Shown here: in pieces, positions 4,079-61,763 of the stretch
Layout: each line of letters begins with the position of its first letter
Position numbering within the stretch: the first letter of the stretch is position 1
NCBI GenBank assembly: GCA_951812925.1
Contig: OX638368.1
Coordinates: 77,358,909 to 77,422,908, forward strand
Length of the DNA: 64,000 bases
Direction of reading: 5' to 3'
Origin: Calliopum simillimum
Taxonomy: Eukaryota > Arthropoda > Insecta > Diptera > Lauxaniidae
The notes under the pieces: model-generated
Told to the model about the DNA's origin: nothing
Databases searched by the model: none
Seen by the model: the letters and a program-made list of their open reading frames with translations, nothing else
Position numbers and translations under genes: made by a program

Positions 4079-4829
4079 CGCGGTGGTTTTTAAAAAATTT
4101 TAACTTTTTTAAATACCACCCGCGATTTTTATCAGGGATAATGTTGGGGGACCCTTCTAGTATCAAAATCCGCAAACCGCGAAATCGAACGTCCAGCCGT
4201 TTTTTTTTTCGACATTTTAGTTTTTGTAACGGTTTTTGGGTATGTCTTGGTGTTTATATACATATTATATACACATATATGTAGTGCATCACAAATATAC
4301 TTTACACAAAACACTTTGTTTTAAAAATTTTATAATTTTATAGTTTCCAGTTTTTAAATTTTCAATTGTATTCAAATAAAATTTATTCTAATAAAATAAT
4401 TCAATTGTTAACAACAAAAATTAAATCATACATACAGTGTTCCAATTATATCTTCGTACAGCAGCTGTTTTAAAATTTAGTGAAAAAAAACAATAAAGTA
4501 GGCCAACAAATTTGAAAAAGTTTTGATGCAGATTTATTTAATAAATATTTATGTTTAATTTAGATACGAAAAATTATTCACTTTAATTATTTTTTGCATA
4601 TATATTGACTAAAAATAAAACAAAGTCGCAGATTTGACTCCAATAAAGTCTTCGTACACTTGAACTTTTGTTTGCATTTTTGTTCTTTTTTACTGAAAGT
4701 TTTCTTAAAAAATAACGGTTCTTAACAGAGAGTGGTACACATCCACACGTTATACACATGCGTAACAAGGCAAGTGCCAATTTGATGAGTTCTGATTAAA
4801 ATTTTTTAAAATTGCGTCTGGTAAATACT

Positions 4830-5310
4830 TGTTAGTTGAAGAGCGAAAGCTTTTATTGGATCTACATGTGAAGAAGCAAAAATCATACTCGGTACTAGCC
4901 AAACTATTGTCCCGCAACCTCTCTACTATACAGTGTGCAATCGGCCGGTGTAAATATGAAGACCGCGTCGAGAAAAAGCCCAAATAATAACGCCCTACAG
5001 TTCTCACATATGGAGATCGGCTGCAAATCAAGCGTATGTTCGCCTTGGATCCGTTCATAACTACACAGAAACTAAGTGCAGAGCTCCTTCAATCCAGTCA
5101 AAGCGAACTTCATCCAGAAACCAATAGAAAACTCATGATTGATGCCGCATTTAGCTCTCGCAAACCTCAGAGTAAGCCTTTGGTTAATGCCATAAATCTT
5201 AAAAAAAAGTTTAAATTGAACTCGCCAAGACCGAAATGCCTCTCTAGAGATCTGGCAGAATGTTATATTATCAGATGAGCCTAAGTACAACATTTTTGGG
5301 TCTTATCATT
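4830..5310 (+). pseudogene. Tc1-like transposase, 5' half (left arm)
   Basis: Reading frames on the plus strand encode the N-terminal helix-turn-helix region of a Tc1-like transposase (words KQKSYSVLAKLLSRNLSTIQ and DPFITTQKLSAELLQ), then a basic linker with SSRKP, and after a frame change the first catalytic-D motif LSDEPKYNIFG near 5268-5304. Stops and at least one frameshift interrupt it. The region carrying the last two catalytic acids is absent. The same half-gene lies inverted in the right arm. Confidence 0.75.
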
Positions 5311-5374
5311 GAATTTAGGTCTTAGGGAGAGCAATTTAAACATTTTTTACGATTTATTGCATTACTATGAGGTT

Positions 5375-5711
5375 TCCGAGAGCTAAATCTGGCATCAATC
5401 ACGGGTTTACTAATTGTTTCTGGATAAAGATCGTTTTGACTGCATTGAAGGAGCTTAGCACTTAGTTTCTGTGCAGTTATGAACGGATTCACGGCGATCA
5501 TATGCTTGATTTACAGCCGATCTCCATGTGTGAGAACTGTAGGGCGTTCTAATTTAGGCTTATCCTCTAGGCGGTCTTCATATTTAAAGCGGCCGATGGC
5601 ACACTGAATAGTAGAGAGGTTGCGCGACAATAGTTTGGCTATAACCGCGTATGATTTTTGCTTCTTCACGTGTTGATCCAATGAAAGCTGAAGCTCTTCA
5701 ACTAACAAGTA
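5375..5711 (-). pseudogene. Tc1-like transposase, 5' half (right arm, inverted)
   Basis: On the minus strand the word KQKSYAVIAKLLSRNLSTIQ repeats the N-terminal helix-turn-helix of the left arm with a few changes. The frame stops at 5511, and the following DNA-binding linker reads on past that stop. It ends before the first catalytic-D motif, so this arm is a little shorter than the left one. Confidence 0.7.
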
Positions 5712-6171
5712 TTTACCAAACGTAATTTTAAAAAATTTTAATCAAAACTCATCAAATTGGCACTTGCCTTGTTACGTATGGGTATCACGTGTGAATGTGT
5801 GTCACTCTTTGTTAAAAACCGTTATTTTTAAAGGAAAGTTTTCAGCAAAAAAGAACAAAAATGCAAACAAAAGTTCAAGTGTACGAAGACTTTATTGGAG
5901 TCAAATTTTCGACTTTGTTTTATTTTTAATCAATATATATGCAAAAAATATTTAAAGTGAATAATTTTTCGTATATAAATTGAACATGAATAGTTAATAA
6001 ATAAATCTGCATCAAAACTTTTTCAAATTTGTTGGCCAACTTTATTGTTTTTTGTCACTTAAGTTTGAAATAGCTGCTGTACGAAGATATAATTGGAACA
6101 CTGTAAATAAAATAATAATAAAAATATCTGGCGCTCTAAAAAATAATTTAAATAAACGAAGCACCTACAAC

Positions 6172-6183
6172 TGGCGATCCTGC
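6172..6183 (+). promoter_or_regulatory. Primer-binding site of element A
   Basis: TGGCGATCCTGC lies 2 nt after the LTR end. The same sequence follows the LTR ends of element C at 50663-50680 (minus) and 53026-53043 (plus), again after a 2-nt gap, which supports its role as the tRNA primer site. I cannot name the tRNA with confidence. Confidence 0.75.
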
Positions 6184-6594
6184 TAAACCATTCAAAATAA
6201 TTTGTGCACATCTTGTCAACTTTAATTTTCATCTTGCCAGCTAAAATATATCCCGCCAACAACATTCAACATTACATCCTGTAGACTCGAACATTGATCC
6301 AATACTGCAATTAATGCCCAATTTATGTATGCATTCTCCATACAACTGTACGATTGAATGAATGAATGCCGTATCCTGTATGCGTGTTCCCTAGAGATTT
6401 ACATTTGAATGAATGAATGCCCTTTCCTGCTTTTAAATAGACCCTGCTTAGTTAGATAAGTAATTTTATTAATTAAATATATTATATTAACTTCTTTTTC
6501 CAGGAACTATAAAATTTTAAAATTTAAACATAACATTCCACTCCTTATTTTTATATTGCGTGACGTATTTATAATTTAATTTAACTCATACACT

Positions 6595-7575
6595 ATGAAT
6601 ATAATACGCTCTCCACAACGCTCTTCTCAACTTGAGGAACGTAATACAGATAACTCAGACTTAATTAATTTAAGATCCGATTCTATAGCTAACTCTTCCG
6701 AGATACAGCCTAATTTAGAAATTCATGCAACGTCGGTTAAATTGCCTCAATTTTGGACTAGTTGTCCGGATGCATGGTTCATCCATGCTGACATCCAGTT
6801 CCAGTCCAAGGCCATTACGGCAGATAAAATAAAATACGAATATTTAGTTACAGCTCTTCCCCAAGAAGTTATTTTGACTGTGTTAGACTTCATACAGAAA
6901 CCCCCTACAAATAATCTGTATGAAGGCTTAAGAAAATTGTTGATTGAGAGACATTCTCTAAGTGAAAACAAGAGAATTGACAAAATTTTATCTGACACTG
7001 AGATGGGAGACCGAAAACCATCTCAATTGTATAGGTCACTCCTCTTACTAGCTGGTTCTTCAGTAGAACCCGAATTTTTAATAAAATTATGGCTACGTAA
7101 GTTGCCTAAGAACCTTAATATCGGCTTAACAGGATCAGGACACACAGAATTACAAGAACTTCTGAAACTAGCAGATAGACTGTGGGAAGTGATGACAGAA
7201 AGGGAAGTGATGACAGAAAGCGAAGTTTCTGCAATATATAAAACTTCCCACCAAATATTTAATAAACAAAGTTCTACTTCTAACGAACTAGCAGTCGTGA
7301 TGCAAAATTTTACAGAAACTACCATACAAATTTTAGAGTCTTTCAACAAACTCTCTTTAGAAGTAGAAGCCATCAGGTCTGATCATAATTATCGTTCACG
7401 CTCACGTTCAGATTCAAGAGGTTTTCCTAGACGTCGATCAAACTCTAGGGATATATCTCGTCCACATTCATCCAATTGGTTGTGCAGGTATCACTACAGA
7501 TTCGGTAATGAAGCAAGAAGATGTGAGCAACCATGCTCATTCGTTCAAAACAATTATAAAAACTCAACAAACTAA
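6595..7575 (+). CDS. gag: Gag protein of LTR element A
   Basis: An intact 326-codon frame from an ATG about 425 nt after the PBS. The N-terminal half carries a capsid-like domain (words WTSCPDAWFIHADIQF and ALPQEVI, also found in element C). An acidic stretch around residues 195-215 holds a short repeat (EVMTE, REVMTE). The C-terminus is Arg/Ser-rich (about 268-290), then has a CHCC finger C-x2-H-x9-C-x3-C that should bind nucleic acid. It would assemble the cytoplasmic particle. Pol follows in the -1 frame, so a -1 frameshift would link them. It is the best-preserved gene of this element. Confidence 0.88.
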   Translation: MNIIRSPQRSSQLEERNTDNSDLINLRSDSIANSSEIQPNLEIHATSVKLPQFWTSCPDAWFIHADIQFQSKAITADKIKYEYLVTALPQEVILTVLDFIQKPPTNNLYEGLRKLLIERHSLSENKRIDKILSDTEMGDRKPSQLYRSLLLLAGSSVEPEFLIKLWLRKLPKNLNIGLTGSGHTELQELLKLADRLWEVMTEREVMTESEVSAIYKTSHQIFNKQSSTSNELAVVMQNFTETTIQILESFNKLSLEVEAIRSDHNYRSRSRSDSRGFPRRRSNSRDISRPHSSNWLCRYHYRFGNEARRCEQPCSFVQNNYKNSTN

Positions 7576-7589
7576 AGGACTCTGTCATC

Positions 7590-9327
7590 GCGACGGCTGA
7601 TGATGGAAGTCTCACAACACTTTTTATTTATGATACTACAAACAAATTAAATTTCCTTATTGACAAAGCAGAAGTATCGGTACTTCCCTCTTCTAAATTC
7701 AAAAATCAAAAACAGAAATCAGATTTAAGTTTAACGGCAGCCACTGGCACATCCATTGCAACTTTCGGAAAGAAATTACTTACACTCAATTTAAAATTAC
7801 GACGTGACTTACCTTTTACATTTATCATTGCTGACATAAACAAACCAATTATAGGAGCAGATTTTCTAACAAAATACGGATTACTAATTGACCTCAAACA
7901 TAAACGCCTCATAGATCCACTCACAAAATTATCAATAAATGCATTTTCTGCATTCACAGAAACACCTCTTCCTAAATTATTCATAATAGAGAACATATAC
8001 ACTCAATTGCTCAAAAAATTTCCATCACTAACAACAGAACCAGACTACACTAAACATGTCAAACACAAGACAGTACATCATATTATAACAGAAGGATAGT
8101 TACCTTTTACAAGACCACGACGTCTAGATTTACAAAAATCGAAAATAGCTAAACATGAATTTGATTTCTTAGTCAAAGTTGGCATTTGTAGACCATCAGA
8201 TTCCAAGACAGCATCTCCACTCCATCTAGTACCAAAACGCAAACCAAACGACTGGAGACCATGCGGTGATTACAGAAGACTTAACGCTATAACAGTACCA
8301 GACCGCTATCCACTACCACACATACACGATCTCTCAATTAATTTACACAACAAAAATTTTTTCTCGAAACTTGATTTGGTAAGAGTCTATCATCAGATTC
8401 CAATGGCCTCCAATGACACATACAAGACAGCAATCACTACACCATTTGGAATGTTCGAGTTTCTCCGAATGCCCTTCGGTTTAAGAAACTCAGCGCAAAC
8501 ATTTCAAAGGTTTATAAATGAAGTTTTACATGGACTCGATTTCGTCTTCGTTTACTTAGATGACATATTAATAGCTAGTGAAACAGAAGATTAACACTTG
8601 AAACATCTAATACAAGTTTTCAATCGACTAAGTGATTATGGACTAAATATTAAGCTCAACAAATGTGTTTTCGGAGTCAATAAGATAAATTTTCTTAGTT
8701 ATAATGTTTCTAAACAAGGTATACAACCATCAACAGAACGAATACAATGCATACAAGACTACCCACAACCCGCTACAGTTAAACAAATGCAAAAGTTTAT
8801 CGGTATGACAAACTACTACCACAGATGCATTCCTAAACTTGCGCACACGCTAGGTCCCATTTATGAGATGGTGACATCCGCTTCTAAAACAAAAGACAAA
8901 CATCTTAAATGGACAGATACCACTTTAAACGCATTCACAGCAATAAAGGATAGTTTTGCTAAGAAAACACTAATTAATCATGTTAATAGTAAAGCAAAAA
9001 TATCAATCGCTGTAGACGCATCCAACACTGCTCCTTCAACAGGAGCACATTGGCATACTTTAGCCACTAGCATTCTTTTCAAAGAAACTTGGACCTGCAG
9101 AAACAAAATACAGTACATTCGACCGCGAATTACTGGCTATATACTTAACAATCAAACATTTCAGACATTACTTAGAAGGAAATACATTCACAGTTTACAC
9201 TGATCACAAACCTTTAACTACTGCATTACACTCCAAAACAGAACGCAGTCCTAGGCAAACACGACACTTAGAATACATTGCGCAGTTTACCAACACGATA
9301 CTTCACATTAAAGGCACAGAAAACACA
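7590..9327 (+). pseudogene. pol: Pol of element A: protease, reverse transcriptase, RNase H (broken)
   Basis: Frame 0, starting about 15 nt after the gag stop. The protease active site, DSG in sister element C, reads DKA here, so it is dead. In-frame stops are TAG at 8097-8099 and TAA at 8592-8594; comparison with element C suggests CAG and CAA glutamine codons changed by C-to-T. The RT keeps [25 protein letters not shown] and the catalytic FVYLDDIL (near 8550-8570). The RNase H start (SIAVDASNTA, near 9005) is followed by frameshifts around 9040-9110; later RNase H words (TVYTDHKPLT, VADALSR) are in frame 1, which runs into integrase. Confidence 0.88.
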
Positions 9328-10326
9328 GTGGCTGATGCTCTATCAAGATGCGAGGTAGAAGAACTTAAAACACCCGATCTTGATCTTAAGCACTTATACA
9401 AAGAACAAGTTATTGACTCAGAATTAAAAACCGCTATCGCCAAGAACATCTATAAATTCGAACAAATTGATGTTCCATTTTTAAACATCAAAATTTGCTG
9501 CAAAAATTCTACAGACACTGTACGTCCGTACATTCCACAGACATTACGTAAAATATTTTTCGAACAGCTACATAACATTTCCCATCCCGGAATAAGAGCG
9601 TCCAGACGATTAATAACACAACGTTACTTTTGGCCAAACATGAACACACAAATTAACAAATGGTCACAAGAATGTATTAACTGCCAACGAGCAAAAATAC
9701 ACAGACATACACGAACACTACCCCACAAAATAAGCATTCCACATGGTCGTTTTGAGCATATTCACATCGATCTAGTCGGTCCACTGCCCATTTCGAATGG
9801 TGATAGATATCTCCTCACTACCATAGATAGAAATACACGTTCGCCAGAGGCATATCCACTTAAAGATACAAAATCCAATACAATTGTTGACACATTAAAT
9901 AGAGAATTTGTTTCACATTTCAGAGTTCCTCTTGAAATAACATCTGATCGAGGACCCCAGTTCACTTCTACTACTTTTAAACAATTTGTTAAAAATCTTG
10001 GTAGTCACCACATAACGACTTCTGCTTATCATCAGCAAGCAAACGGAATGATAGAACGGTTTCATCGTCAACTGAAAGCTTCACTCATGGCGAGTAATAA
10101 TCAAAAAAACTGGTATTCAGAACTGCCACTAATTCTTTTAGGCCTAAGATCAACTGTTAAGGAAGATATTAAAGCATCTCCAGCTGAAATGGTTTTCGGT
10201 CAAACTCTTAAGTTACCACATCAATTGGTTATTCATAATTCACAACCTTTCAATTCGTCAGATATCTTGTTTAATCTTAAAGAAAACATCAAGAATACTC
10301 AATCACATATTTCACATCATAATGCA
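9328..10326 (+). pseudogene. pol: Integrase of element A, N-terminal and core part (split by element B)
   Basis: Carries the H-H-C-C zinc finger (LHNISHPGIRASRR ... CINCQRA), then the catalytic D-D-E core: D in HIDLVGPLP, D in ITSDRGPQF, and E in NGMIERFHRQ. The frame itself is open, and it is interrupted at codon AAT-GCA by LTR element B; the remainder continues at 19143 after the duplicated TGCA. Rejoined across the insertion, the reading frame is continuous (described only, not written out). All three catalytic acids are present. Confidence 0.88.
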
Positions 10327-10611
10327 AGTTAGTCACATCGTGCCAAACAAATCAATTTGCATCCGCCCCACCGTACATTATCAATATGTCAATATTTTCG
10401 TATATGCTTAGATCTATGTATATGTATTTTAAGAAATCTTGTTTACCGTATAATAAGTACTAAAAACATAACTGCGCTTAGCACGATAAATATTACATAC
10501 TGTCAGCGTCAAAAGAAATTGTACACGTTAATATGTTATGTTTTTGTCTTTATTTTACTAGTTTGCTTTATCATTTTATTCAACATATTATGTTTTTTGA
10601 AAAATATATTA

Positions 10612-32105: not shown

Positions 32106-32219
32106 AATGATTGTACTAAAGTCTTCTAATATTGAAATAGCAAAATTTTTACAGTTTTCCTTATAAAACAAAAACTACCATGCGGAATCTCAAGTGCTAT
32201 ATCTTTATTTTCCGAAATA

Positions 32220-45060: not shown

Positions 45061-45945
45061 TTGAGTGTACAACTTAAAAACCGGAATTTTTTAGCGAAAT
45101 TTGATGCTTTACATATTGTGGAAAAATGTTACAATATATTTTATTCAAAGTATTGTCCATTGGAAGCTACAACATTTCCCCACCTTTCAGGCAATTTATG
45201 AATTCCATCACAAAAAAATTGCGCCGGCTTGGCGGCCAAAATATCTTGAAATTAAGTGAAGCTTATTCCCGATAGGGCATTCTGCATCGATCGGAACAAA
45301 TGGTAGTCTGATGGTGCAAGGTCTGGGCTATAAAGCGGGTGAGGCAAAATTTCCCATCCGTTGTTTTCAATTGTTTTCCAGGTAATTTTTGACTGGGGCA
45401 GCAATATGTGGCCGAGCGTTATCGTGGTGGAAAATGGTTGACTCATGTCTGGTCGCATACGTTGGCCGCTCTGCCTGGATTTTCTGCTTCAATTGGATCA
45501 CTTGTTGACGATAGAATTGAGCATTAATGGTTTGGCCACCTGGCAACAGCTCATAATGGATCACACCTAGCTGGTCCTGACCAGTACGTTCTTTGTCTTC
45601 AACATCAAAATAACCACTTTTAAACCACTCACGACAGCTTGATTCAGCTGGAGCATAGTCCTCATAAACTTCTACAAGAATGCGATGACTTTCGGCAGCT
45701 GTTTTCTTTGCAAAAAAATGACCCACTAGAACCCCCCCGCAAATGCTGTCTTTTTCTCCAATTTTCGAAGTTATTCATCGTGAAAAATAATAATGATGCA
45801 CACAAGATAAAATTGTTTTGTTGACTGATTTTGACAGCTGTCAAATGTACCTTCAAAATGACATATATATAAAGTTCGAGCTTTCACGATATTTGTTAGT
45901 ACGGACATCCACCGTCAAATTCCGGTTTTTAAGTTGTACACCCAA
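45061..45945 (-). mobile_element. Deleted mariner element
   Basis: TIRs TTGAGTGTACAACTTAAAAA (left) and the complement of TTGGGTGTACAACTTAAAAA (right), with TA on both sides (45059-45060, 45946-45947). At 885 bp it is shorter than the usual 1.3 kb because the transposase gene is deleted internally. Confidence 0.88.
45141..45778 (-). pseudogene. Mariner transposase with internal deletion
   Basis: Starts at ATG 45778 and ends at TAA 45141-45143. The N-terminal HTH region (TAAESHRILVEVYED, CREWFKSGYFDVEDKERTG) is joined directly to LGVIHYELLPGGQT, so the second HTH and the stretch up to the first catalytic D are lost. The rest has HDNARPH and YSPDLAPSDYHLF (second and third acids of the D,D34D triad) and a mariner C-terminus (KLPERWGNVVASNGQYFE). 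Frameshifts lie near 45715 and 45370. About 640 bp remain of the usual 1040. Confidence 0.86.
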
Positions 45946-47715: not shown

Positions 47716-48900
47716 CTTACAGTCTTGGGCTTCTGTCAGCTTTGAAGCTAAGGGCGTACGTTAGAGGTTTATGATCAGTAAGAACAGTAAATGTTCGTCC
47801 CTTAAGAAAATGTTTAAAATGTTTTAAATTTAGATAGATTGCCAACAATTCTCTATCAAAAGTACTATATTTAATTTCAGCTGGACTTAGCTTCTTCGAG
47901 AAAAACGCGAAGGGTTCAATTTCATTATTGACTTCTTGTTGAAGAAGTCTACTGCAATGGACAATGTTGCTTTGCTATCAAAATGATTTAACAGTGTGTT
48001 CTTAGCAAAATTTTCCTTAATTTGCTTAAATGCTTCTACTGTGTTAGTGTTCCATACGAGTGTTTTTGATTTATTTTTGGTCGCGGCGATTATCATGGAG
48101 TGAATTGGACTGAGTATATGCGCTAGATTTGGAATATAACGGTGGTAATAGTTTACCATTCCAACAAACTTTTGTATTTGTTTTATTGATTTTGGCTGTT
48201 CGAAATCTCTGATAGCATGTACTTTGGTTTCTTTTATCTCTTGGGACGAAATATTATAGCTAATAAAATCAATATTTGAGACTCCAAATATACATTTGGT
48301 TGGTTTGATATTTAGTCCGTATTCCATTAATCTTTCGAAAACTGTTTTAAAGTGTGTAAGATGTTGCTTTTTAACGTGACTTCCTATGAGGATGTCGTCA
48401 AGGTAAACAAAAGTGAAATTTAAACCAGTCAAAACTTTATTGATAAACCTTTGGAATGTTTGCGCTGGGTTTCGAAGACCAAAAGGCATTCGGATGAACT
48501 CATGCATTCCAAAAGGTGTCGTTATTGCGGTTTTGTATATGTCCTCTTCGGCCATTGGAATTTAATGATAGGCACGTATGAGGTCTAATTTGGAAAAAAT
48601 GGTTTTGTCGCGAAGGTCAATATTGAGATCGTGAATGCGTGGAAGTGGGAATCTGCCTGGAACGGTAACAACGTTTAATCTGCGATAATCGCCACAAGGT
48701 CGCCATTCATTTAGTTTTTTCTTTGCAACTATATGTAATGGTGATGAAAATGATGAACATGAAGGACGACAAATGCCAGATTTTACTAAAAAATCTAATT
48801 CTGTCTTTGCAACCTTATGTTTAATGGGGTCTAAACGTCTCGGTTTTGAAAAAGCTAATTGACCTTCAGTAACAAGGTGGTGAACAGTTGAATGTTTCAC
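47716..48900 (-). pseudogene. pol: Reverse transcriptase and truncated RNase H of element C
   Basis: RT start [19 protein letters not shown] and FSKLDLIRAYH, then a stop at 48557-48559 that replaces Gln (CAA to TAA). It continues with MPFGLRNPAQTFQRF, catalytic [13 protein letters not shown] (near 48395-48430) and VGMVNYYHRYIPNLA. RNase H follows with a deletion/frameshift at about 47950, then FFSKKLSPAEIKYSTFDREL and LTDHKPLT, ending near 47716 where homology stops. Confidence 0.85.
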
Positions 48901-49599
48901 TGGTATATTATAATTTAGTTCTGCTGTAATGGAGGGGAAAAGTTTAAGAAGTTGTGTGTATTTATTTTCTACTGTAGAAATACGAGATAAAAAAATATTG
49001 GAAAGAACTGAAATGGCATTTATTGTTAATTTCGTAAGAGGATCTATTAAACATTTATTTTTAACATCTATAAGAAGTCCGTATTTGGAGAGAAAATCTG
49101 CTCCAATAATCGGTTTTGAAATATCTGCAATGAGAAAAATGAAAGAAAATTATATACGGAGGCCTAAATTTATGTTAAGCATCTTCTTTCCAAAAGTTGA
49201 AATAGTTCTGCCATTTGCAGCCGTTAAAATGATGTCCAAAGATCTTGAACTTTTTTTGAATTTGGAGGAAGGTAAAACTGAAATTTCTGCTCCACTATCG
49301 ATAAGGAAATTCAACTTGTTGTCTTTATCGTACACAAATAAGCGACGAGTGAAAATGTCCAAGTTCCCATTGTCTGTCGCTGCGACAATGGGTTTCTTAG
49401 TTTGTTGAAGGTGAATTGTTATTATAGTTTTTAAAGGAACAAGGCTGCTCGCATTTTCTAGCCTGGTTTCCAAATCGGTAGTGGAAACGACAGACCCAGT
49501 TTTTAGACCAAGGTCTCCTACGCTGTTGGGATCTTTGCCTAAATTGTGACCGAGAATTTCTTTCGTGAAACTATTGTTTAATTGAGTTGACTTCAACAC
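48901..49599 (-). pseudogene. pol: Protease region of element C
   Basis: LNFLIDSGAEISVLPSSKF holds an intact DSG active site at about 49285-49310 (minus), unlike element A. It is followed by AANGRTISTFGKKML. The frame breaks at 49150, but the plus-strand sequence to 48929 still carries the complement of the protease C-terminus and linker. Confidence 0.78.
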
Positions 49600-50257
49600 T
49601 TAGTATTTGAAAATTTTCACACATTGTCGAAGTAACGCGAGTTAAATTTTCTAAAACTTTTTCAAGATTTGAAGTTGAGTTATTCCGTATGGAACTTACT
49701 TCACTATAATGAGTTACTTCCCATATATTATCCGCGAGACGAATTAAATCATGAATGTTATTAATATTCGAATTTGTTAAAGCGATATTTAAATTTTTAA
49801 GAAGGTCAGAAGAAATACTTGTTCCGGCAATTAGTGTTAAGGACCTATAATACTCGGATGGTTTACGGTCACCGATTTCCGAATCCGATAATATTTTCTC
49901 AAGTTTGCGTTGTTCACTTAGAAAATTACGTTCGATCAAAGTGTTTTTAATGTTTTCGTAATACGGTTTTTGTAATACGTCAAGAACGTTCAATATAACG
50001 TCTTGTGGTAGTGCAGTGATTATGTGTTCATATTTTGTGTTGTCTTGTATAATACCTTTTGTAGCAAATTGCATGTCGGCATGAACAAACCAAGCCTCTG
50101 GACAATTAGTCCAGAATTTTGGAAGTTTGACCGTAGATTCCGTAGATGTGTATTGAACATTTGTGTGAATTTGTGGATTATCTGTGTCAAGATGTGTTAA
50201 CTGTATAAGATTTGATGTATCTCCACTAGTTGGAGCATGGATAGGGGAAAGTATCAT
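49571..50257 (-). CDS. gag: Gag of element C (capsid part)
   Basis: The ATG at 50257 (MILSPIHAP) opens a frame of about 228 codons. It shares KLPKFWTNCPEAWFVHADMQF-like and ALPQDVILNVLDVLQKP words with gag of element A, and LSDSEIGDRKPSEYYRSL. The Arg/Ser-rich tail and CHCC finger of A are not found in frame, so the C-terminus is truncated or out of frame before protease begins at about 49599. Confidence 0.82.
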   Translation of the reverse strand: MILSPIHAPTSGDTSNLIQLTHLDTDNPQIHTNVQYTSTESTVKLPKFWTNCPEAWFVHADMQFATKGIIQDNTKYEHIITALPQDVILNVLDVLQKPYYENIKNTLIERNFLSEQRKLEKILSDSEIGDRKPSEYYRSLTLIAGTSISSDLLKNLNIALTNSNINNIHDLIRLADNIWEVTHYSEVSSIRNNSTSNLEKVLENLTRVTSTMCENFQILSVEVNSIKQ

Positions 50258-50662
50258 ATTGATCAAGGAGGGAGGTGTACAAGTTTTACTATCTTATTAA
50301 ATGTTTAAATATATTGTTTATATTTTATATCAATGTATTTCTATATATTTTATGTATATATACTAGTATTTAGTGTACTTATCTTAGTGAATGAGAAAAA
50401 AATAACTTGAGTGACTGCGTTGTTTATGTTGATATTGCCAGAGGTTGATGGTGTGGTTGATAGGTGTTGGACTCACTATCCTTGAAGTAATCGGTTAAAC
50501 GTTTTCTATTGCTAAAAAATTATCTCTATTTTTATAATTGAAGATGCTGTTGTAATTGCTGTTATTAGCTTCGCTGATCGGTGTTGCTGTTGCGTAATAT
50601 GTTACTGTTAAGGAGCACGTTTGTCTTGTTTTTGTTATTCAGGCTTTCGTTGACTTAATGTT

Positions 50663-50680
50663 CTCCTGGCAGGATCGCCA
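50663..50680 (-). promoter_or_regulatory. Primer-binding site of element C (left copy)
   Basis: On the minus strand TGGCGATCCTGCCAGGAG, 2 nt after the LTR end ...GGACTGCA (50683). The mirror copy is at 53026-53043. Confidence 0.75.
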
Positions 50681-50892
50681 ATTGCAGTCCTTATTGTTGT
50701 TTATTAAATTAATTTATTTCGTTGTTTATTTGTTTAATTTATTTTTGTATCGTATATTTAATATTAATTTAAAATTAATTTTTACTTGAACGTTTAGTCA
50801 TTGTAAAGATCGATTTACATATAAATCTATCAATGCATTTTCTTTCTAACACATAATTATGGCAAATTAAAGAACGGATTAAAAACACGGCT

Positions 50893-50943
50893 ATAGTGAC
50901 ATAAGTATGTTTCGTCTTTTGCCACAAAGACTCATCAGACTAT
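50893..50943 (-). ncRNA. Hammerhead ribozyme motif, type I (left copy)
   Basis: Minus strand 5' to 3': stem I strand AUAGU, core CUGAUGA, stem II GUCUUU-(GUGGCA)-AAAGAC (6 bp, perfect), core GAAA, stem III of 4 bp (A-U, C-G, A-U, U-A) with loop ACUU, cleavage triplet GUC, stem I strand ACUAU (5 bp with AUAGU). All conserved hammerhead core bases are present. The open stem I and short stem III are the arrangement known from Penelope-like elements, animal retrozymes and schistosome SINEs. Predicted cut after C complementary to 50898. Activity is not shown. Confidence 0.85.
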
Positions 50944-51029
50944 TTTTGTTGTAATTATAATTATATTTATTTTACTAAACTAATTATAATTGAAAAATTG
51001 CAAGTTGAAAAACTCTTTGTGTTTTGGCC

Positions 51030-51095
51030 TGGGCGGGAGTTGAACCAGGGACCTCCCTGTTGGTAGCACAAGTCATTAACCAATGCACCAGCCTT
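51030..51095 (-). promoter_or_regulatory. tRNA-like pol III promoter boxes (left unit)
   Basis: Minus strand: A-box-like TGGTGCATTGG (51080-51090) and B box GGTTCAACTCC (51036-51046), a full match to GGTTCRANTCC, 33 bp apart. The surrounding sequence looks tRNA-derived but does not fold into a full cloverleaf with an acceptor stem, so it is a SINE-type promoter rather than a tRNA gene. It lies about 100 bp upstream of the left ribozyme in the same direction. Confidence 0.65.
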
Positions 51096-51699
51096 GTCCG
51101 GCTGCGAAGCCGACTTTTGCCAGTTTTGTTCGTGTGTTAATACGTGGGCCTTGTCATGTGATAATTGTTGTTTGTGTTATTTATTAATATGTAGTACAGC
51201 TATTCCATTGGAATTAGATTCAATAACGATTGGTCGGTGGCAAGTGTTGCCACCTTATCAGGGCGTGTTCTCCCAAATAACTTTTAAGAATTTTTAAGTG
51301 TGTTACTTAATGACATTTATATATTGAAAATTAATTTTTACTTGAACTTTTAGTCATTGCAAAGATCGATTTACATATAAATCTATCAATGCATTTTCTA
51401 ATACATAATTATGGCAAATTAAGGAACGGATTAAAAACACGGCACGATCTTTGCAATGACTAAAAGTTCAAGCAAAAATTAATTTTCAATATATAAATGT
51501 CATTAAGTAGCACACTTAAAATTCTTAAAAGTTATTTGGGAGAACACGCCCTAATAAGGTGGTAACACTTGCCACCGACCAATCGGTATCTAATTCCAAT
51601 GGAATAGCTATACCATATATCAACAAATAACACAAACAACAATTATGACATCACAAGGCTCACGAACAAAAATGGCAAAAGTCGGCTTCGCAGCCGGGC

Positions 51700-51765
51700 A
51701 AGGCTGGTGCATTGGTTACCGACTTGTGCTACCAACCGGGAGGTCCCTGATTCAACTCCCGCCCA
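51700..51765 (+). promoter_or_regulatory. tRNA-like pol III promoter boxes (right unit)
   Basis: Plus strand: TGGTGCATTGG (51705-51715) and GATTCAACTCC (51749-51759), a one-base decay of the left B box. About 95 bp upstream of the right ribozyme, same strand. Confidence 0.62.
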
Positions 51766-51852
51766 GGTCAAAACACAAAAAGTTTTCCAACTTGCAAATT
51801 TTCAATTATAATTAATTTAGTAAAATAAATATAGTTATAATTACAACAAAAA

Positions 51853-51899
51853 TAGTCTGATGAGTCTTTGTGGCGAAAGACGAAACATGTGTCACTATA
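51853..51899 (+). ncRNA. Hammerhead ribozyme motif, type I (right copy)
   Basis: Plus strand: AUAGU (51853-51857), CUGAUGA (51858-51864), stem II GUCUUU-(GUGGCG)-AAAGAC (51865-51882), GAAA (51883-51886), stem III of 2 bp with loop AUGU, GUC (cut after 51894), ACUAU (51895-51899). Six nucleotides are missing from stem III relative to the left copy, but the A-U and C-G pairs next to the core remain. Such a short stem III usually needs a dimer to cleave well. Confidence 0.82.
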
Positions 51900-52076
51900 G
51901 CCGTGTTTTTAATCCGTTCCTTAATTTGCCATAATTATGTGTTAGAAAATGCATTGATAGATTTAAATCGATCTTTGCAATGACTAAAAGTTCAAGTAAA
52001 CATTAATTTTAAATTAATATTAAATATACGATACAAAAATAAATTAAATAAACAAATAAACAACGAAATAAATTAA

Positions 52077-52993
52077 GGGGACATTCGCTTTTGTAATTGA
52101 AACAAAAAACACTTTTTAAAAATTTAATTATGAAAAAACTATTATATTTATTGACAAAATTTCTTTTAGACATTGTTAAATATTGTCTAAGGAATATGAA
52201 AAAAAAATTTTTTTTTATTTTTAGTTTCCCTTGGCTGCTGTAGAGGGCGTCATCCAAAAGATACTTTTTAAACCGTAGGAAATTTTGTAGACCTCCTGTA
52301 ACAGATTTTTGAAAAATTCAAAATGGATTTTATTCTTGAGATTCAAAATTATACAATAAGCCTTTAAAATTCATACTTTTTTATATTTTGAAGTTTTTGT
52401 ATGAATATTTATGAAAAATGCGAAAAAATTGAGAGACTTTCCCTCAAAAAATGCCCCGTAAAAAAAAGTGGGGGGTATTTTTTAAATTTTTCAGAGGTTT
52501 ATTGTTTAATATTTTTAATGAGTAATCGAATGCTCTTTGGGTTTTTAAAATCAGTCGAGTAGATTCGGAGAAAAATTTCCTACCAGTTTGAAAAGTAACT
52601 TTTGGATGACGCCCTCTACAGCAGCCAAGGGAAACTAAAAATAAAAAAAAAAAAAATTTTTCATATTATGGTGATATTTTGTTCGACCTTATGACTTTAA
52701 AATTTTTAATCTAAGTTTCTTCAGGCTCTAGGTGAAGACGAACACCGAAGGAGTTCGAAATATTGAAAAAATTAAACAAAAACAAATTTATTTCATTAAA
52801 ACATAAAAGAGTTTTATTTGGAACTGACCTAGAGCCTGAAGAAACTTAGATTAAAAATTTTAATTTTTTCATATGTTTTGGACAATATTTAACAATGTCC
52901 AAAAGAAATTTTGTCAATAAATATAATAGTTTTTTCAGAATAAAATTTTTAAAAAGTGTTTTTTTGTTTTCAATTACAAAAGCGAATGTCCCC
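52077..52993. mobile_element. piggyBac-like foldback MITE
   Basis: Ends GGGGACATTCGCTTTTGTAA and complement, flanked by TTAA on both sides (52073-52076, 52994-52997); the mirror arm near 50715 shows the empty TTAA-like site. Arms include GACGCCCTCTACAGCAGCCA and its inverse. A further hairpin (52700-52870, CTTCAGGCTCTAGGT / ACCTAGAGCCTGAAG) lies inside the right half. No transposase. The exact TTAA duplication is the basis of the piggyBac call. Confidence 0.75.
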
Positions 52994-53025
52994 TTAATTT
53001 AATAAACAACAATAAGGACTACAAT

Positions 53026-53043
53026 TGGCGATCCTGCCAGGAG
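53026..53043 (+). promoter_or_regulatory. Primer-binding site of element C (mirror copy)
   Basis: TGGCGATCCTGCCAGGAG after LTR end GGACTACA and a 2-nt gap. Downstream leader sequence matches the left copy only to about 53072, then diverges. Confidence 0.72.
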
Positions 53044-53072
53044 AACATTAAGTCAACGAAAGCCTGAATAAC

Positions 53073-53838
53073 AACACACTTAAAAATTCTTAAAATATTA
53101 ATTTAAATCTTTGAATGATGATGATTTTATATATAAATTTTTTATAGAAAGAAAACTTTTCGTAGAACTGAATTTTTAGAATTTTTAAAATAGGAAATTG
53201 AATTTTAAAATATTATAGTGAACATCAAACTTGTAAAGTATATACATAATATAATAAAGTACCTACAACCATTATGTTTTTTATTGGGTGGTGCTACGCC
53301 CCCAAATAGAAAAAACTCTCTCACAGCTAAACAACAGCATCGATTTTTACAAAATTTTATATAAAGGTAGGATAAACGCTAAGGAATGATAACATGACCA
53401 TTACGCTTTTTTCAAATTGGGACGGAAAGATATCAAAAACTTTTTGCTCTTTAGTAGGAGTAACACCCCTCTAAATGCCAAGCACGCTATTGCAACTAAG
53501 CTGCTGCACCGATTTTTATGAATGCAGATAACCAGAACCCTAAAGAAGAATATTAAAAGCTTTTTGAGTTTTATCGACCAAGGACGGTTATAAAAACTTT
53601 TTGCTTTATAGTCAAATCTAAATGGTCGAATTTCGGCCACAAGGCGAACTCTAGTCAACATAAAAAGAGCAATAAAACCAATTTCTTTTGGTCGGAATTA
53701 CCATATCTGACACCACTCATCAGGACCGTGCACACGGGGGGGTTCTGAGGGTTCTTTAAATCTGATTATTTGATTCATAAGCCGCACTACCAACTTAAAT
53801 TTGAAGAAATCTTAGACCATTTAAATACGTACACCTAC
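53073..53838. other. Probably intron or intergenic DNA next to the receptor exon
   Basis: Two diverged copies of a ~180-bp repeat (CTAAACAACAGCATCGATTT near 53330; CTAAGCTGCTGCACCGATTT near 53500). No further receptor exon could be recognised here. Confidence 0.4.
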
Positions 53839-54165: not shown

Positions 54166-54672
54166 CTGATAAATAGAAAGTAAAAGCTTTGTGATTATTA
54201 AAACATACGTAGGTTTATTTTATTTAACTTAACATTTTATAAAAAAAGTGATGGTGTTACTTTGTACCTGACTTTATTCTTTATTTATGTAGTATTCACA
54301 AACGCTTTCGCCTGTAAATAGTTTCTTGTGATCTGCAAATTGTGCTCTTTCTAAAATTATAAATCGTAATTTTGTTTGCAATTGGTTTTTCCAGGTTTTT
54401 TATTTCAAATTCAGGCAAGTCAATTTAGACAATTGAAATTTAGAAAAAATGTTTTTTTTTTTTTGGGTGCAAATAAAAATAAAAATCTTTTGATTCCCTG
54501 ACATTTTAAATCAAATTTTCTATTTTTTTGTGTTACGCGCAAACGGTGTTTTTAGTGCTTTTAGATGAAATTATCTCAAAATACGTACAATATATAACAC
54601 TCTTGAGACCGGATTCGGAATAAGCATAACCAAATACATCAGAAATGGCTATTATTGTTCTATTTCGCAGTA
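54166..54672. other. Intron/intergenic DNA with a Y-related fragment
   Basis: Mostly AT-rich. 54575-54655 resembles the right arm of Y (GAGACCGGATTCGGAATAAG), and may resume after the Tc1-like insertion at 56299. No exon seen. Confidence 0.4.
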
Positions 54673-56298
54673 CAGTGGCTCACAGCTTATTTCGTGCAGT
54701 AATTCTTTTTTAACTTTAAAACACTGTATCTTTTATCAAATTTTAAATGCAGGCTTATACGGGCATGTCTATTGTTAATAATAAGTAAAAGAAAATCCAT
54801 ATAATTTGATTCCGAGACGCTTAAGGCGGAAAAAAACGACCGAACAGGAGAAATTGAAGTCACAGCTTATTTCGTGCAGATGCTGATTTTCCCTTTGGAG
54901 TCAGCGTTTCGCGTTATTTAATGAGAATTTCTTTTTCAATGTTCTCTGTGGGGTATTTTCAACCAGATGCATCCAATTTTTAGTTTGATCATGTACATGT
55001 GAGGGTAAAAAAGTGCATTTTGCAGAAATGGCTCGTCCAGTAACGAAAATCAGTGATAACTCATTTTAAGAACGTCCAATCCATGCGCTAATCTTCTTAA
55101 TATGTTAGTTTGAGTCCAACCTACAATGCAAAGTACAATTGAAAGCTTCGTTCATGCAAATCGGGTCCAAAATTAGGGTAAATGTGCGTCAAAAAACAAT
55201 TTTAGTTCCGCTGACGATTCATTTATGGTCCACAAAATCAATACTAACCCACATTATTGGCTCCGAAAACCGTCTGGGATATACATCAACAACTAAGTAA
55301 CTCGTAGAGTGCGAAAACTGGCGGCTGCGTGTCCCGAGACCACAGGTTCAAAGCCCGAGTAGTCCTTCATAAGCAAAAAAAATTCAAAAAAGTCTACTTG
55401 GTTTTGCGATTCGGCTCAATATTACGTTTCCGCCATAAGTATGTCATGTCATCAGGTTCAAATATGTTAAATTTAGACTCGTCCATGATTATGACGTTGC
55501 TTTAAAAGTCCTAACCTTTGTGGGCGTGCTAATACTGAGCTCAATATCAAAAATAATGTGGGCTATTCTGGCTTTTTTTGTTTATGAAGGGCTACTTAGG
55601 CTTTAAAATTGTGGTCTCGGGACATGCAGCCGCCAGTTTTTGCACTGTACGAGTTACTTAGTTCTTGATGTATATCCCAGACGGTTTTTGGAGCCAATAA
55701 TGTGGGTTAGGATTGATTTTGTGGACCATAAATGAATCGTCAGCGGGATTAAAATTGTTTTTTGACGCACTTTTACCCTAATTTTGGACCCGATTTGCAT
55801 GAACGAAGCTTTCAATTGTGCTTTGCATTGTAGGTTGGACTCAAACTAACATATTAAGAAGATTAGCGCATAGATTGGACGTTCTTAAAATGAGTTATCA
55901 CCGATTTTCGTCGCTGGACGAGCCATTTCTGCAAAATGCACTTTTTTACCCCCACATGTACATGATCAAACTAAAAATTGGATGCATCTGGTTGAAAATA
56001 CCCCACAGAGAACATAGAAAGAGAAATTTTCATTAAATAACGCGAAACGCTGGCTCCAAACGGAAAATCAGCATCTGCACGAAATAAGCTGTGATTTCAA
56101 TTTCTCCTGCTCGGTCGGTTTTTTCCGCCTTAAGCGTCTCGGAATCAAATTATGTGGATTTTCTTTTACTTATTATGAACAATAGACATTCTTGTCTAAG
56201 CCTGCATTTAAAATTTGATAATATATGTATTAGTTTTAAAGATACAGTGTTTTAAAGTTAAAAAAGAATTACTGCACGAAATAAGCTGTGAGCCACTG
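54673..56298. mobile_element. Palindromic Tc1-like element, IR/DR type
   Basis: Ends CAGTGGCTCACAGCTTATTT and complement, with TA on both sides (54671-54672, 56299-56300). The end word CACAGCTTATTTCGTGCAG recurs about 180 bp inside each arm (54862; 56074), an IR/DR layout. The arms (~750 bp) are inverted copies and meet near 55480. The centre holds a transposase fragment. No complete gene. Confidence 0.85.
55385..55510 (-). pseudogene. Tc1-like transposase fragment around the first catalytic D
   Basis: On the minus strand: NVIIMDESKFNIF, then YLWRKRN, the block around the first catalytic D of Tc1 transposases. A stop replaces the usual Trp just upstream. It belongs to the right arm; an N-terminal MARPVTKI-like start is found in each arm (54986 and the inverse near 55930). 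Confidence 0.7.
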
Positions 56299-57177
56299 TA
56301 AATATATTATACTGAACTTTTTATTTTGGTTCTTTATGATTAATTTACACTGACTCACAAAAGTTTATGAATTTTGTCGTTTTTAAGGAAACTTCCAACC
56401 AGGGTTTGATCTGCTGACTATAAAATAGCTATAGCAACGAAAATTTGCTGAACTGTGCTGCGTCAGTTATTGCGTTTAACATTTTGGACTTACTGCTTGC
56501 TGTGCTTTTTTTCAACCAACGAAGTCAAGCAATTCAAGCAAGCACATTTTTGGTTTTGTGCTCTGCTGTTGCTTTTGTTATTGGAAATAGCAAAGTTTTA
56601 ACCAAGCAAGCACAAACACGAAGCGAAGCGTAACTCCGATTGTGCTTTTGCTTTTTGTTTAACTCGGCTGTTTGAACTTCGGCTTTTCGCTGTACAGAGC
56701 AGAAGCAACTTTTAGGATTGCCAAATGTTTTTTTTTTTGTAAAATTTGCTAAAACCATACATATAAAAAAAAAATTAATTTTAGCCTTAAACTGCTTAGA
56801 TAAACTTTTAAAAAATCCAACATATTTTTTAGGGTTGCCACCAGGTTTTTTCAATAAAATCAAAATTTTGTTTCAATAAATTGTTAAAATCATCATTTTC
56901 TCTCTATAAGTTGACATCTTGGGTCCAAAAACAACGAAACAAAAATTTAGGGTTTCCATATTAGGGTTACCAGACGTTTATTTTGCAAAATACATTTCTT
57001 TAGCAACTTTCTTCATTGAAAGTTATAGAATTGACCCAAAAACGCATAGTAAAATTTGATTTTATTAAAAAAACCAGGTGGCAACCCCAAAAAATTTATT
57101 ATGGGTTTTTGGGTCGATTCTATAACTTTCTATAAAGAAATATGACAAAGAAATGCAATTTTGCGAAAAAACGTCTG
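56299..57177. repeat. AT-rich DNA with inverted repeats
   Basis: GGGTTGCCACCAGGTTTTTT at about 56833 and AAACCAGGTGGCAACCCC at about 57071 are inverted. A second, overlapping pair runs from CAGACGTTTATTTTGCAAAA (56970) to its complement at about 57155-57175. Short TIR MITEs are likely. A 62-codon frame at 56445-56633 has no recognisable domain. Confidence 0.5.
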
Positions 57178-57409: not shown

Positions 57410-57818
57410 TGTAAGAAGGTAGTCGGTTTGTCAGCAGTAGTCAACAGCCGTAGTTATCTTTTATCAGCATTGATCAATTGTCAGTAATCATCGTGAGTCA
57501 GCAGTCAGTCGTTTTTTAACCATCGTCGTTCGCAGTTGATCCGTTGTTAAGTAGTCGCAGTCGTTATAACTTAAAGACTTTGTATTAAAATTCGATCGTC
57601 AGTTGCTTTAGTTTGAAGTTGTTTCTGTTGATTTAATTTAAATTCAGTTGCCTCAGTTGTTTTTCTTAATTATCTTTAATTTAATTATAATTCAATTTAA
57701 TCGTTTTTTTTCTAAATATTATAATTTAAGACTTGAATTTGTGAAATATTATTTTCCCAAAAATACTCTTTAATAAAACTTATTGAAATCATCATTGAGT
57801 GTTTTAACACACTTTACA
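57410..57818 (+). repeat. 5' LTR of element D
   Basis: Begins TGTAAGAAGGTAGTCGG, ends ACACACTTTACA. Contains AATAAA (near 57773), a likely polyadenylation signal. Confidence 0.9.
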
Positions 57819-57820
57819 TT

Positions 57821-57834
57821 TGGGGGCTCAACCG
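57821..57834 (+). promoter_or_regulatory. Primer-binding site of element D
   Basis: TGGGGGCTCAACCG two bases after the LTR. Its first nine bases match the complement of the tRNA-Pro 3' end (TGGGGGCTC); the match then weakens, so the primer identity is tentative. Confidence 0.5.
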
Positions 57835-58031
57835 CTCAAAACTAGTGAAAAAAAAAATAAACAGAAAAAGAAAAGTGTATAAAGTTGTTGGGGGTGCACC
57901 CAAGAAAAAAAAGTTTGCACCCAAGAAAAAAAAGCGTCGCAAGACAAAAAAGTGCTGCTCTACATAACTATAACACGCGGTCGCGGGTGAAACATTTAAT
58001 TTCTAGAAGTTTTACAAAAAGTACAGTCAAC

Positions 58032-58577
58032 ATGTCCCATAGTAACAAAGGGGAAAATGAAAATTCGATCAACGGTAGTGTCGTGTCTGACGATATTGAA
58101 ACGGTTGTCGGCGGTTCTTCTAATCAAAACGTGCAGTTGTGTGAGTTGATGCGCTTACTCGCTCTAAAAATAGAATCCGATGATAAAAGAGATAGCAAGA
58201 TGAACGTTTCGATTGACAGTTTTTCGAAAATAGTGCCGGAGTGCGACGGTGAAACGATACCGATAAAAAAGTGGTTTGAAATTTTTGAATCCAATGCCGA
58301 CGCATATGGATTAAATGAAAAACAAAAATATGTTCAAGCACGCAATAAAATTACAAAAACTGCTCAGCTTTTTCTTGAGTCAGTTGCGTTGAGTGATTTC
58401 GGTTCGTTAAAAAATGCGCTTATAAGTGAATTTCACGTTGATTACAACAGTGCAGAAATCCATCGTCAAATGCGCGAAAGAAAAAAAACAGAAACAGAAA
58501 CATTTCATGAGTATATGCTCAAAATTAAAAAAATTGCTGCACTCGGTAATGTAGATGACATTTCTGTTTTGCGTTAA
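58032..58577 (+). pseudogene. gag: Gag of element D, N-terminal part
   Basis: I chose ATG 58032 (MSHSNKGENENS). The capsid-like part has IPIKKWFEIFESNADAYGL and MRERKKTETETFHEYMLKIK. TAA at 58575-58577 stops the frame after SVLR; the same frame continues immediately as VVDGLKIKSECKIALYG, so this is a single-codon lesion. Function: particle formation in the cytoplasm. Confidence 0.83.
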
Positions 58578-58589
58578 GTTGTTGACGGC

Positions 58590-59636
58590 TTGAAAATAAA
58601 ATCAGAGTGTAAAATTGCGTTATACGGTTCTAAGTCATTTGCTGAATTAAAAGAGAATTATGACATTGTAATGAGAGCATCTTCTTTTGCGTTTGATATT
58701 CCGCACAAAGCAAACAAAAGAAACGAATCAGTGAAAGAAACAAAAAACAATGAATATGCAAAGAAAGATCATTGTTATAATTGTGGTGCTTCTGATCATA
58801 AGAGATCAGAGTGCACAAGAGAAACCAAATGTTTCAAGTGTAACAAGAACGGTCATATATCGAAAAATTATGATCAAAACAAAAGAGTTGACAGTTCTCG
58901 TGTAAACAAAATATCCGATAAGAGACGTTTGAAAAATGTAAATATTAATGGTGAACAGTTTGAGTGTTTGGTGGACACAGGAGCTGATGTCTCGATTATT
59001 AAAGAAAGTGCGTGTAAAAAATTAAAAAAAGTGACTTTGGCAAAAAGTAATTTAACTCTTTATGGTTTCGGAAATATGCCAAGTAAAGTTTTATCAAGCT
59101 TTGTTGGTACGGTGGAAGTTGATGGACTAAAAATTGAACAAAAATTTTTCGTTGTGCCTGATAAAGAAATTGAACATTGTGTGCTGCTAGGTTTTGATTT
59201 TTTAAATAAATTTCTTTGGTCGTCAGATGAAAATGGATATTCATTTCAAACATTAGCGACAAATAATAAAGGTGAAGATTGGCAAGCTGCAATTTACAAA
59301 ATTCATTTAAATGAAGCTGAGGCAGACACACCACCACAGTATGCAGCAGAAATCAACAACATTATTAAAACGTATTCTGCAGCAATAAGCAATATGAAAA
59401 AATGTCCAATTGTAATGCAGATAACACCAGATAAGATGACACCATTTCGCCAAGCACCAAGCAGATTACCACCAAGTCAGCAAGAAGTCGTGAAGGAGCA
59501 AATAATGGAGTGGCTTCAAAAAGGTATAATTCGACAGTCCACATCGAATTACGCCAGCAGAGTGGTCGTGGTAAAGAAAAAAGATGGCACTCACAGAGTG
59601 TGCATCGATTTCCGTCAATTGAATAAATGGTCCTGA
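58590..59636 (+). pseudogene. pol: Nucleocapsid, protease and RT start of element D
   Basis: Same frame as gag. Two CCHC knuckles: CYNCGASDHKRSEC and CFKCNKNGHISKNY (last Cys changed to Tyr). Protease CLVDTGADVSIIK (DTG at about 58974-58983) and LLGFDFLNKFLW. The RT fingers follow: IMEWLQKGIIRQSTSNYASR, VVVVKKKDGTHRVCIDFRQL. The frame is lost at 59630 by a deletion that removes roughly ten residues before the palm. Confidence 0.85.
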
Positions 59637-61590: not shown

Positions 61591-61763
61591 TGTATATGTA
61601 TATATGTGTAATATATATATATGGATATATATATACATACATACATACATACATATAAAAGGTATCGTTTCCGCACCATTTATTTTTTAAAAAAATCGGT
61701 TTTTTCGTGTTTAAGAAAAACACAAACAAAAACCGGAAACGAACGTAGTCACTCCAGATGTTA

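Follow-up and report, generated by a model that had tools for sequence, protein, structure and literature searches.

Two type I hammerhead motifs in mirror-image units with a PBS-like site: a probable LTR end of a Ty3/gypsy-type retrotransposon

Described carriers of hammerhead ribozymes

Plant LTR retrozymes, as far as they are described in the available part of Cervera 2016 (PMC4918200), are non-coding elements with two LTRs, a tRNA-Met PBS, a PPT and a 4-bp TSD, and their hammerheads are mostly of type III. The locus analyzed here lies in a window of 64 kb (i.e., the whole stretch of DNA under study, 64,000 nucleotides), and it has in common with the plant retrozymes a hammerhead upstream of the PBS, a connection to Ty3-gypsy elements and a ribozyme placed where it would trim the RNA, whereas its hammerheads are of type I, its PBS is a different one, a single end is seen, the element is mirror-duplicated and, instead of a non-coding interior, gag-RT-RNase H follow the PBS on the left side. 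The non-LTR retrozymes of animals (PMC7229834) share with it the type I hammerhead and an AT-rich unit, but the units presented in the accessible text of that work are 170-400 nt long, arranged in tandem and devoid of LTR, PBS and PPT; for the class as a whole, tandem units of 150-450 bp were allowed in our comparison. Here the descriptor scan of the window found one hammerhead on each strand and no tandem array, a PBS-like site is present, and the repeat period of 552 nt is represented by 1.2 copies. According to the portion of PMC4918200 at hand, neither PBS nor PPT was present in metazoan hammerhead repeats, although those of schistosomes contain a tRNA.

Penelope-like elements and Terminons (PMC11167929, PMC7761336, PMC6155905, as excerpted) resemble the present element in that a hammerhead is located in the terminal repeat of a coding retroelement. 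The typical combination, a PLE RT with or without GIY-YIG and a minimal hammerhead without helix III, is not what was found here: the RT is of another type, the hammerhead is fuller, a PBS-like site is present, and none of the 19 distinct ORFs scanned with Pfam had a GIY-YIG domain. The SMalpha and W36.2 repeats of schistosomes (PMC8490949, PMC4918200) also have a type I hammerhead and possibly a tRNA-derived part, but they are presented as a 335-bp SINE-like repeat, and the available passages of these papers describe no PBS-gag linkage. Finally, fly DUF7041 Ty3/gypsy elements and the Mdg1-type gypsy elements of mosquitoes with an Arg PBS (PMC3286476) share with our element the gag family, the RT-RNase H and the place of the PBS; the accessible part of PMC3286476 mentions no hammerhead, and none was found by the descriptor scan in the related element of this window (4281-10332) either. 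Among the titles and beginnings of abstracts that searches of the open-licence literature listed, none showed an LTR element of an animal or insect with a hammerhead.

Hammerhead motifs and the units that carry them

Exactly two strict type I hammerheads with intact cores were detected in the window (Table 1), so that the original prediction, which had placed two motifs with these cores and stems at 50893..51899, was correct in this respect. In both copies a 5-bp stem I, open outward, is followed by CUGAUGA, by a 6-bp stem II with a 6-nt loop and by GAA; stem III is closed by A15.1-U16.1, and then come C17 and the 3′ strand of stem I. Both copies hence display the CUGANGA / GAA / UH core, the three helices and the opening at stem I by which a type I hammerhead is defined. 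The left copy reads ATAGT-CTGATGA-GTCTTT-gtggca-AAAGAC-GAA-ACAT-actt-ATGT-C^ACTAT (- strand, 50943 to 50893), with the predicted cut between 50898 and 50897, and the right copy reads ATAGT-CTGATGA-GTCTTT-gtggcg-AAAGAC-GAA-AC-atgt-GT-C^ACTAT (+ strand, 51852-51898), with the predicted cut between 51893 and 51894. Stem III consists of 4 bp and a tetraloop in the left copy (5 bp when the loop is counted as 2 nt) and of 2 bp and a tetraloop in the right copy (3 bp when counted in this way). The pairs next to the core were kept, as had been proposed, but the difference between the copies amounts to 4 bases and not to six, and the stem III of the right copy still pairs. In most of the constrained folds stem I contained an internal loop (AGCCG on the 3′ side), and loop II read GUGGCR; GGC/GCC complementarity between both loops may be possible, a weak hint that at such a length is, by our own estimate, likely to be chance.

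The strict descriptor (CTGANGA, GAA, A15.1-U16.1, H17, and at least 5 bp in stem I, 6 bp in stem II and 2 bp in stem III) was run on both strands of 16,412 dinucleotide-preserving shuffles of the window, which amount to about 1,050 Mb, and 0 matches were obtained; the two real copies are homologous and were counted as one independent event. When at least 4 bp were accepted in stems I and II there were 0 matches in 200 shuffles and 20 in the 16,412, and with at least 3 bp in each of these stems the number rose to 106. At this last setting one extra match appeared in the real window, at 39472 (-) with stems of 3/3/3 bp, and was taken as chance. Three more CTGATGA...GAAA strings of the window were absent from the descriptor matches. 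A chance origin of the motif is ruled out by these shuffle controls.

The covariance search proposed as a check gave another picture: in the entire window, none of the Rfam families was matched at or above its gathering score. Under a relaxed threshold on 1.7 kb, the right copy was matched by Hammerhead_1 with 21.5 bits (cut-off 34, E 0.039), and the left copy by Hammerhead_3 (20.8 bits, cut-off 48.5, E 0.25) and RAGATH-1-hammerhead (17.3 bits, cut-off 56.3, E 9.9) only. When the whole window was searched, only Hammerhead_3 was listed for the two copies, at 22.0 bits with E 4.1 and at 20.8 bits with E 9.4. Taken to the letter, the lack of a covariance match above cut-off is the outcome that the original prediction had named as its refutation, but by the descriptor control the motif is not due to chance. 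Furthermore, the hammerhead fold was less stable than the minimum-energy fold by 2.1-6.6 kcal/mol in the left copy and by 2.3-10.4 kcal/mol in the right copy, for sequences that ranged from the bare core to a core with 45 nt on each side. Neither copy has lost an essential base, which is weak evidence of constraint, because by our own arithmetic a mismatch of 4.6% predicts about two changes in 40 bases. The sequence anatomy is that of a hammerhead, and self-cleavage is a prediction from this anatomy.

Table 1. Coordinates of the features at the locus and of the related element (positions in the window)
Feature	Position	Strand	Remarks
Left arm	50632..51443	-	R1, body, hammerhead, R2, AT-rich LTR end, PBS-like site, leader start
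Right arm	51444..53074	+	order as in left arm, R1 minus first 75 bases; split by foldback element 52077-52993
R1, left arm	51323..51443	-	first copy of 121-125-bp direct repeat; 92.8% identical to 50767-50891
Left type I hammerhead	50893..50943	-	stems I, II and III of 5, 6 and 4-5 bp
R2, left arm	50767..50891	-	second repeat copy, directly after hammerhead; 125 bp
Right type I hammerhead	51852..51898	+	stem III 2-3 bp; Hammerhead_1 21.5 bits, below cut-off
R2, right arm	51900..52014	+	R1 remnant at 51445-51490
Foldback element	52077..52993	.	917 bp, ends GGGGACATTCGC, TTAA-flanked, within right arm
23-bp exact copy of unit-internal sequence	53073..53095	+	just outside right arm
Pol III A-box/B-box-like pair, left body	51037..51090	-	weak; two such pairs in whole window
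TATATAAA, sole TATA[AT]A match of left unit	51316..51323	-	left unit position 121, about 380 nt upstream of hammerhead; weak
PBS-like 18-mer TGGCGATCCTGCCAGGAG, left arm	50663..50680	-	2 nt past presumed LTR end ...GGACTGCA (50683)
PBS-like 18-mer TGGCGATCCTGCCAGGAG, right arm	53026..53043	+	2 nt past ...GGACTACA (53023)
gag-like ORF, DUF7041	49574..50266	-	E 3e-19; about 415 nt past PBS-like site
Reverse transcriptase fragment, left element	47890..48561	-	RVT_1 8.8e-17
RNase H fragment, left element	47720..47974	-	homology to relative stops there; integrase and 3′ LTR missing
Related DUF7041 element, reference	4281..10332	+	inferred LTR TGTAG...CTACA (4281-6169), TGGCGATCCTGC at 6172, gag 6595, RT, integrase

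The two motifs lie, as had also been predicted, in mirror-image units, and the alignment of both arms gave 32 mismatches in 696 aligned bases (4.6%) and 36 gap columns. Read in the direction of the ribozyme (from 51443 down), the left unit is composed of R1 (121 bp), a body of about 380 nt, the hammerhead and R2 (125 bp), after which an AT-rich stretch with several AATAAA/ATTAAA leads to ...GGACTGCA-AT and then to TGGCGATCCTGCCAGGAG; the terminus of the right unit is ...GGACTACA-AT-TGGCGATCCTGCCAGGAG. The period of R, body and hammerhead is the 552 nt mentioned above. The R1 of the left arm begins 6 nt past the position that corresponds to the ribozyme cut, and if starts were random we estimate the chance of this at roughly 1% (6 of 552 positions). 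Mismatches between the arms were distributed as 24/361 in the body, 2/47 in the hammerhead, 4/116 in R2 and 1/126 in the LTR end, 18-mer and leader taken together (body versus LTR end, PBS and leader, Fisher p 0.008). Such a drop toward the PBS end is as expected if the copies had diverged while mobile. The arms diverge from each other about 31 nt beyond the 18-mer, and the outer 81-bp arms are 99% identical. The empty site of the 917-bp foldback element is present as a single TTAA in the left arm. An assembly artefact is unlikely to be the source of the palindrome, since the arms differ by 4.6% mismatch and the insertion is present in one arm only. The mirror image is best read as secondary, with two copies of the 5′ end of the element joined head to head, and the 23-bp copy that borders the right arm on its outer side resembles filler from end joining or a product of template switching.

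Other repeats were observed in the window. A TACAGTG-ended palindrome of 1.63 kb, whose arms are 88% alike, is located at 54671-56300, and more long palindromes and nested inverted repeats at 13043-14533, 23034-24535 and 30159-34730. The region 109-1523 contains tandem repeats of 80/148 bp and the region 26314-27454 others of about 39 bp, and a fragment of a Mos1-like mariner transposase is found at 45370-45774. An LTR retrotransposon at 57410-61591, with LTRs of about 411 bp that are 99.3% identical and with protease and RT-RNase H ORFs, is apparently a recent insertion.

The PBS-like site, the coding region and the LTR boundary

The 18-mer TGGCGATCCTGCCAGGAG is 217 nt away from the hammerhead cut in the left arm and 212 nt in the right arm once the foldback element is removed. 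We take this 18-mer to be complementary to the 3′ end of tRNA-Arg(ACG). Its letters did not occur in the literature searched. In Culex (Diptera), gypsy elements of the Mdg1 type and some others are reported to have an Arg PBS, in the part of PMC3286476 available. When the 1-kb regions upstream of the gag of the left element and of the gag of the relative were compared, the longest exact match was the 12-nt TGGCGATCCTGC, 414 nt (left) and 423 nt (relative) before gag, and the next longest one had 11 nt, was AT-rich and was out of register. Immediately before TGGCGATCCTGC the relative and the right arm have CTACAAY, and the left arm has CTGCAAT. A conserved 12-mer at a matching distance from gag is the look expected of a primer-binding site, and by position and conservation the site is placed just after the presumed LTR.

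Behind the left PBS-like site, gag, RT and RNase H are homologous to those of the relative and follow in the same order, with 44-77% amino acid identity. The coding frames of the left element are broken and the element is truncated before the integrase, whereas the relative has H2C2 and rve after the region of RT-RNase H homology. The window yielded no 3′ LTR, PPT or second LTR copy, as the element is broken off within RNase H at 47720; the two LTRs, PPT and target duplication of a Ty3/gypsy element are hence not seen in this truncated copy. In the relative, an LTR that ends with CTACA at 6169 is followed by AC, TGGCGATCCTGC, gag, the RT-RNase H homology and an ORF with zinc-binding and integrase-core domains. 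Its LTR start near 4281 was deduced by comparison with two other copies of the flanking repeat, which continue uninterrupted where the LTR would begin, and the LTR itself is split by a mariner-like palindrome of 1.67 kb (4433-6105, TACAGTG...CACTGTA), of whose insertion site an uninterrupted copy is present at 21701-21876. Two 173-bp direct repeats that are 100% identical (10327-10499 and 18699-18871) enclose an RT-bearing ORF and are perhaps those of a short-LTR element nested in the DUF7041 element.

All the relatives of the left gag (n=40) that carry an organism name are from flies. Among the relatives of the second gag (n=64), 19 carry such a name, i.e., 15 flies (Lucilia, Rhagoletis, Haematobia, Calliphora and Musca), 2 moths, a beetle and a spider, and from these gag relatives the host is probably a schizophoran fly. 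The protein search with the RT returned, within the best 120 of 434 matches, 8 organism-named ones, which were flatworm, nematode or bacterial, with no fly among them, so that they are of no use for placing the host. The exact hammerhead pattern gave 0 matches in viral, bacterial and archaeal contig collections and the body pattern gave 0 in the viral one, collections that say little about flies; with an alignment of 15 gag sequences, 0 of the 15 and 16 pattern matches in the viral and the genome contig collections, respectively, were confirmed.

The 5′ edge of the LTR lies outside the visible sequence, as it is cut there by the centre of the palindrome. From its first base down to the PBS, the left unit contains no TGTAG that could match the ACTACA end, and an LTR of the TGTAG...CTACA type would therefore have to begin upstream and so include the hammerhead. 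The simplest reading would be an LTR that begins farther out, is truncated at the palindrome junction and has the hammerhead within it. As an alternative boundary, a 205-bp LTR could start with TGTTTTT 10 nt past the cut, with the ribozyme just outside; the LTR of the relative is about 216 bp long and has no ribozyme. The arrangement common to both arms, together with an R1 that repeats the supposed LTR start, fits better with a hammerhead inside the LTR than with the 205-bp LTR. The AT-rich stretch that precedes the hammerhead matches the LTR of the relative at 75%, but this match was discarded, because AT-rich sequence from elsewhere in the window matches too.

Possible carriers, proposed RNA processing and meaning

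From these data we place the hammerhead, with a probability of about 0.58, within the LTR of a retrotransposon of the Ty3/gypsy type whose host is probably a fly, in the stretch that directly precedes the PBS, and we regard the mirror image as secondary. The reading is based on the anatomy of the motif, on the 212-217 nt to the 18-mer in both arms, on gag, RT and RNase H that follow the left PBS in collinear order, and on the order LTR-PBS-leader-gag that is also present in the related element of the window. Against it count the single locus with its two homologous copies, the Rfam scores below cut-off and the more stable competing folds. The hammerheads had originally been compared with those known from Penelope-like elements, retrozymes of animals and the SINE-like repeats of schistosomes, and a resemblance of the carrier to these is not supported in view of a PBS-like 18-mer in each unit, gag-RT-RNase H of the LTR type on the left, the lack of GIY-YIG in the 19 ORFs and the lack of an array. 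The idea of a new carrier family survives in part: this may be a new kind of carrier, and with moderate confidence we now regard it as the end of an LTR that belongs to an element of the Ty3/gypsy type.

Compatible with the LTR reading and with its rivals, and in our opinion somewhat doubtful, is the possibility that the motif is an inert relic, i.e., a fossil that no longer cuts and whose folding is blocked by the opposite arm and by competing structures. The truncation and the broken coding frames would agree with this, as would the ability of the arms to pair and the minimum-energy folds that are not hammerheads; on the other hand, all the conserved core bases are intact in both copies, stem III pairs after its 4-nt change, and the family may be active elsewhere.

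We consider it unlikely that the ribozyme serves a small non-LTR unit, SINE-like or retrozyme-like and ∼552 nt long (R, a body with pol III-like boxes and the hammerhead, in 1.2 tandem copies), located directly upstream of the 205-bp LTR or captured by it. R1, body, hammerhead and R2 do form such 1.2 tandem copies, which start near the cut site, and 205 bp is close to the LTR length of the relative, but in both arms R2 runs on into the LTR end and the PBS. Schistosome hammerhead repeats carry a tRNA according to the available part of PMC4918200, and A and B boxes are present in the left body, yet the two A/B pairs of the window are near what is expected by chance, and no tRNA was detected with the Rfam models in the 1.7 kb searched under the relaxed threshold or with ARAGORN (bacterial settings) in the window. 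In the right arm the A box is kept (51705-51715) and the B box is mutated. Moreover, a TTTTT at position 432 of the left unit would stop a pol III transcript ahead of the ribozyme, and 552 nt exceeds the length of animal retrozymes given in the part of PMC7229834 consulted. For a tRNA-derived SINE as the carrier there is no indication beyond the A/B boxes, which occur once more in the window.

That the locus is a foldback DNA transposon, whose long inverted repeats contain a hammerhead and LTR debris by happenstance, appears very improbable. The abundance of long palindromes in the window, such as 4433-6105 and 54671-56300 with their TACAGTG...CACTGTA ends, and the near identity of the outer arms would speak for it; however, inspection by eye of 50632 and 53074 revealed no transposon-like ends or target duplication, the arms stop in the leader just past the PBS-like site while the left arm continues to gag-RT, and the palindrome 4433-6105 is an independent mariner-like insertion in the related LTR. 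A Penelope-like element or derivative is hardly tenable, since the minimal type I hammerheads reported for PLE pseudo-LTRs (PMC7761336, PMC11167929, in part) and the partial direct repeat around the motif are outweighed by a neighbouring pol with LTR-type RT and RNase H, by the PBS-like site, by the absence of GIY-YIG from the ORFs scanned, and by a real stem III and a possible internal loop in stem I, unlike the minimal PLE forms (PMC6155905, PMC7761336, as far as available).

If a transcript started upstream, near the sole TATA[AT]A match, which precedes the ribozyme by about 380 nt, and ended in the cluster of AATAAA/ATTAAA that immediately precedes the PBS, the ribozyme would be in R and at both ends of the RNA. 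TATA and AATAAA are common in AT-rich DNA, and here they point only weakly in this direction. Cleavage after GUC would produce a 5′-OH RNA that begins with ACUAUAGCCG and retains the PBS and gag. If both LTRs carried a ribozyme, cleavage would leave a genomic RNA of unit length whose ends could be ligated, so that it might be circularised as in the plant LTR retrozymes; the ligation of retrozyme RNA ends by tRNA ligase in vitro is described in the accessible part of PMC7229834. Since each strand carries one ribozyme and the complement of the other, no circle would be released from the present locus alone. The start of the left copy 6 nt past the cut-equivalent base might reflect the joining of a cDNA that was copied from cut RNA. 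In an Anolis Penelope element the hammerhead was dispensable for insertion in vitro and, in the part of PMC11167929 available, no RNA ends were seen at the cut site, so that the hammerhead of a retroelement need not be used.

Tentatively, and with clearly less confidence than in the LTR reading itself, we propose that animal LTR retrozymes exist: a protein-coding Ty3/gypsy lineage of flies, whose LTRs bear a type I hammerhead in R, might trim its genomic RNA at both ends and replicate through, or give off, a PBS-bearing circular RNA. In the available part of a review by an author of the papers that defined retrozymes, the metazoan ones are described as elements without LTRs, PBS or PPT, in which no conserved motif reveals the mobilising machinery (PMC7761336). 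If our proposal is true, a fly hammerhead tied to a PBS and to an RT of the LTR type would supply a link to this machinery. It would also point to independent acquisitions of hammerheads by LTR elements in plants, where they are mostly of type III, and in animals, where they would be of type I, and it would pose the puzzle of how a retrotransposon that cuts off the ends needed for strand transfer still replicates.
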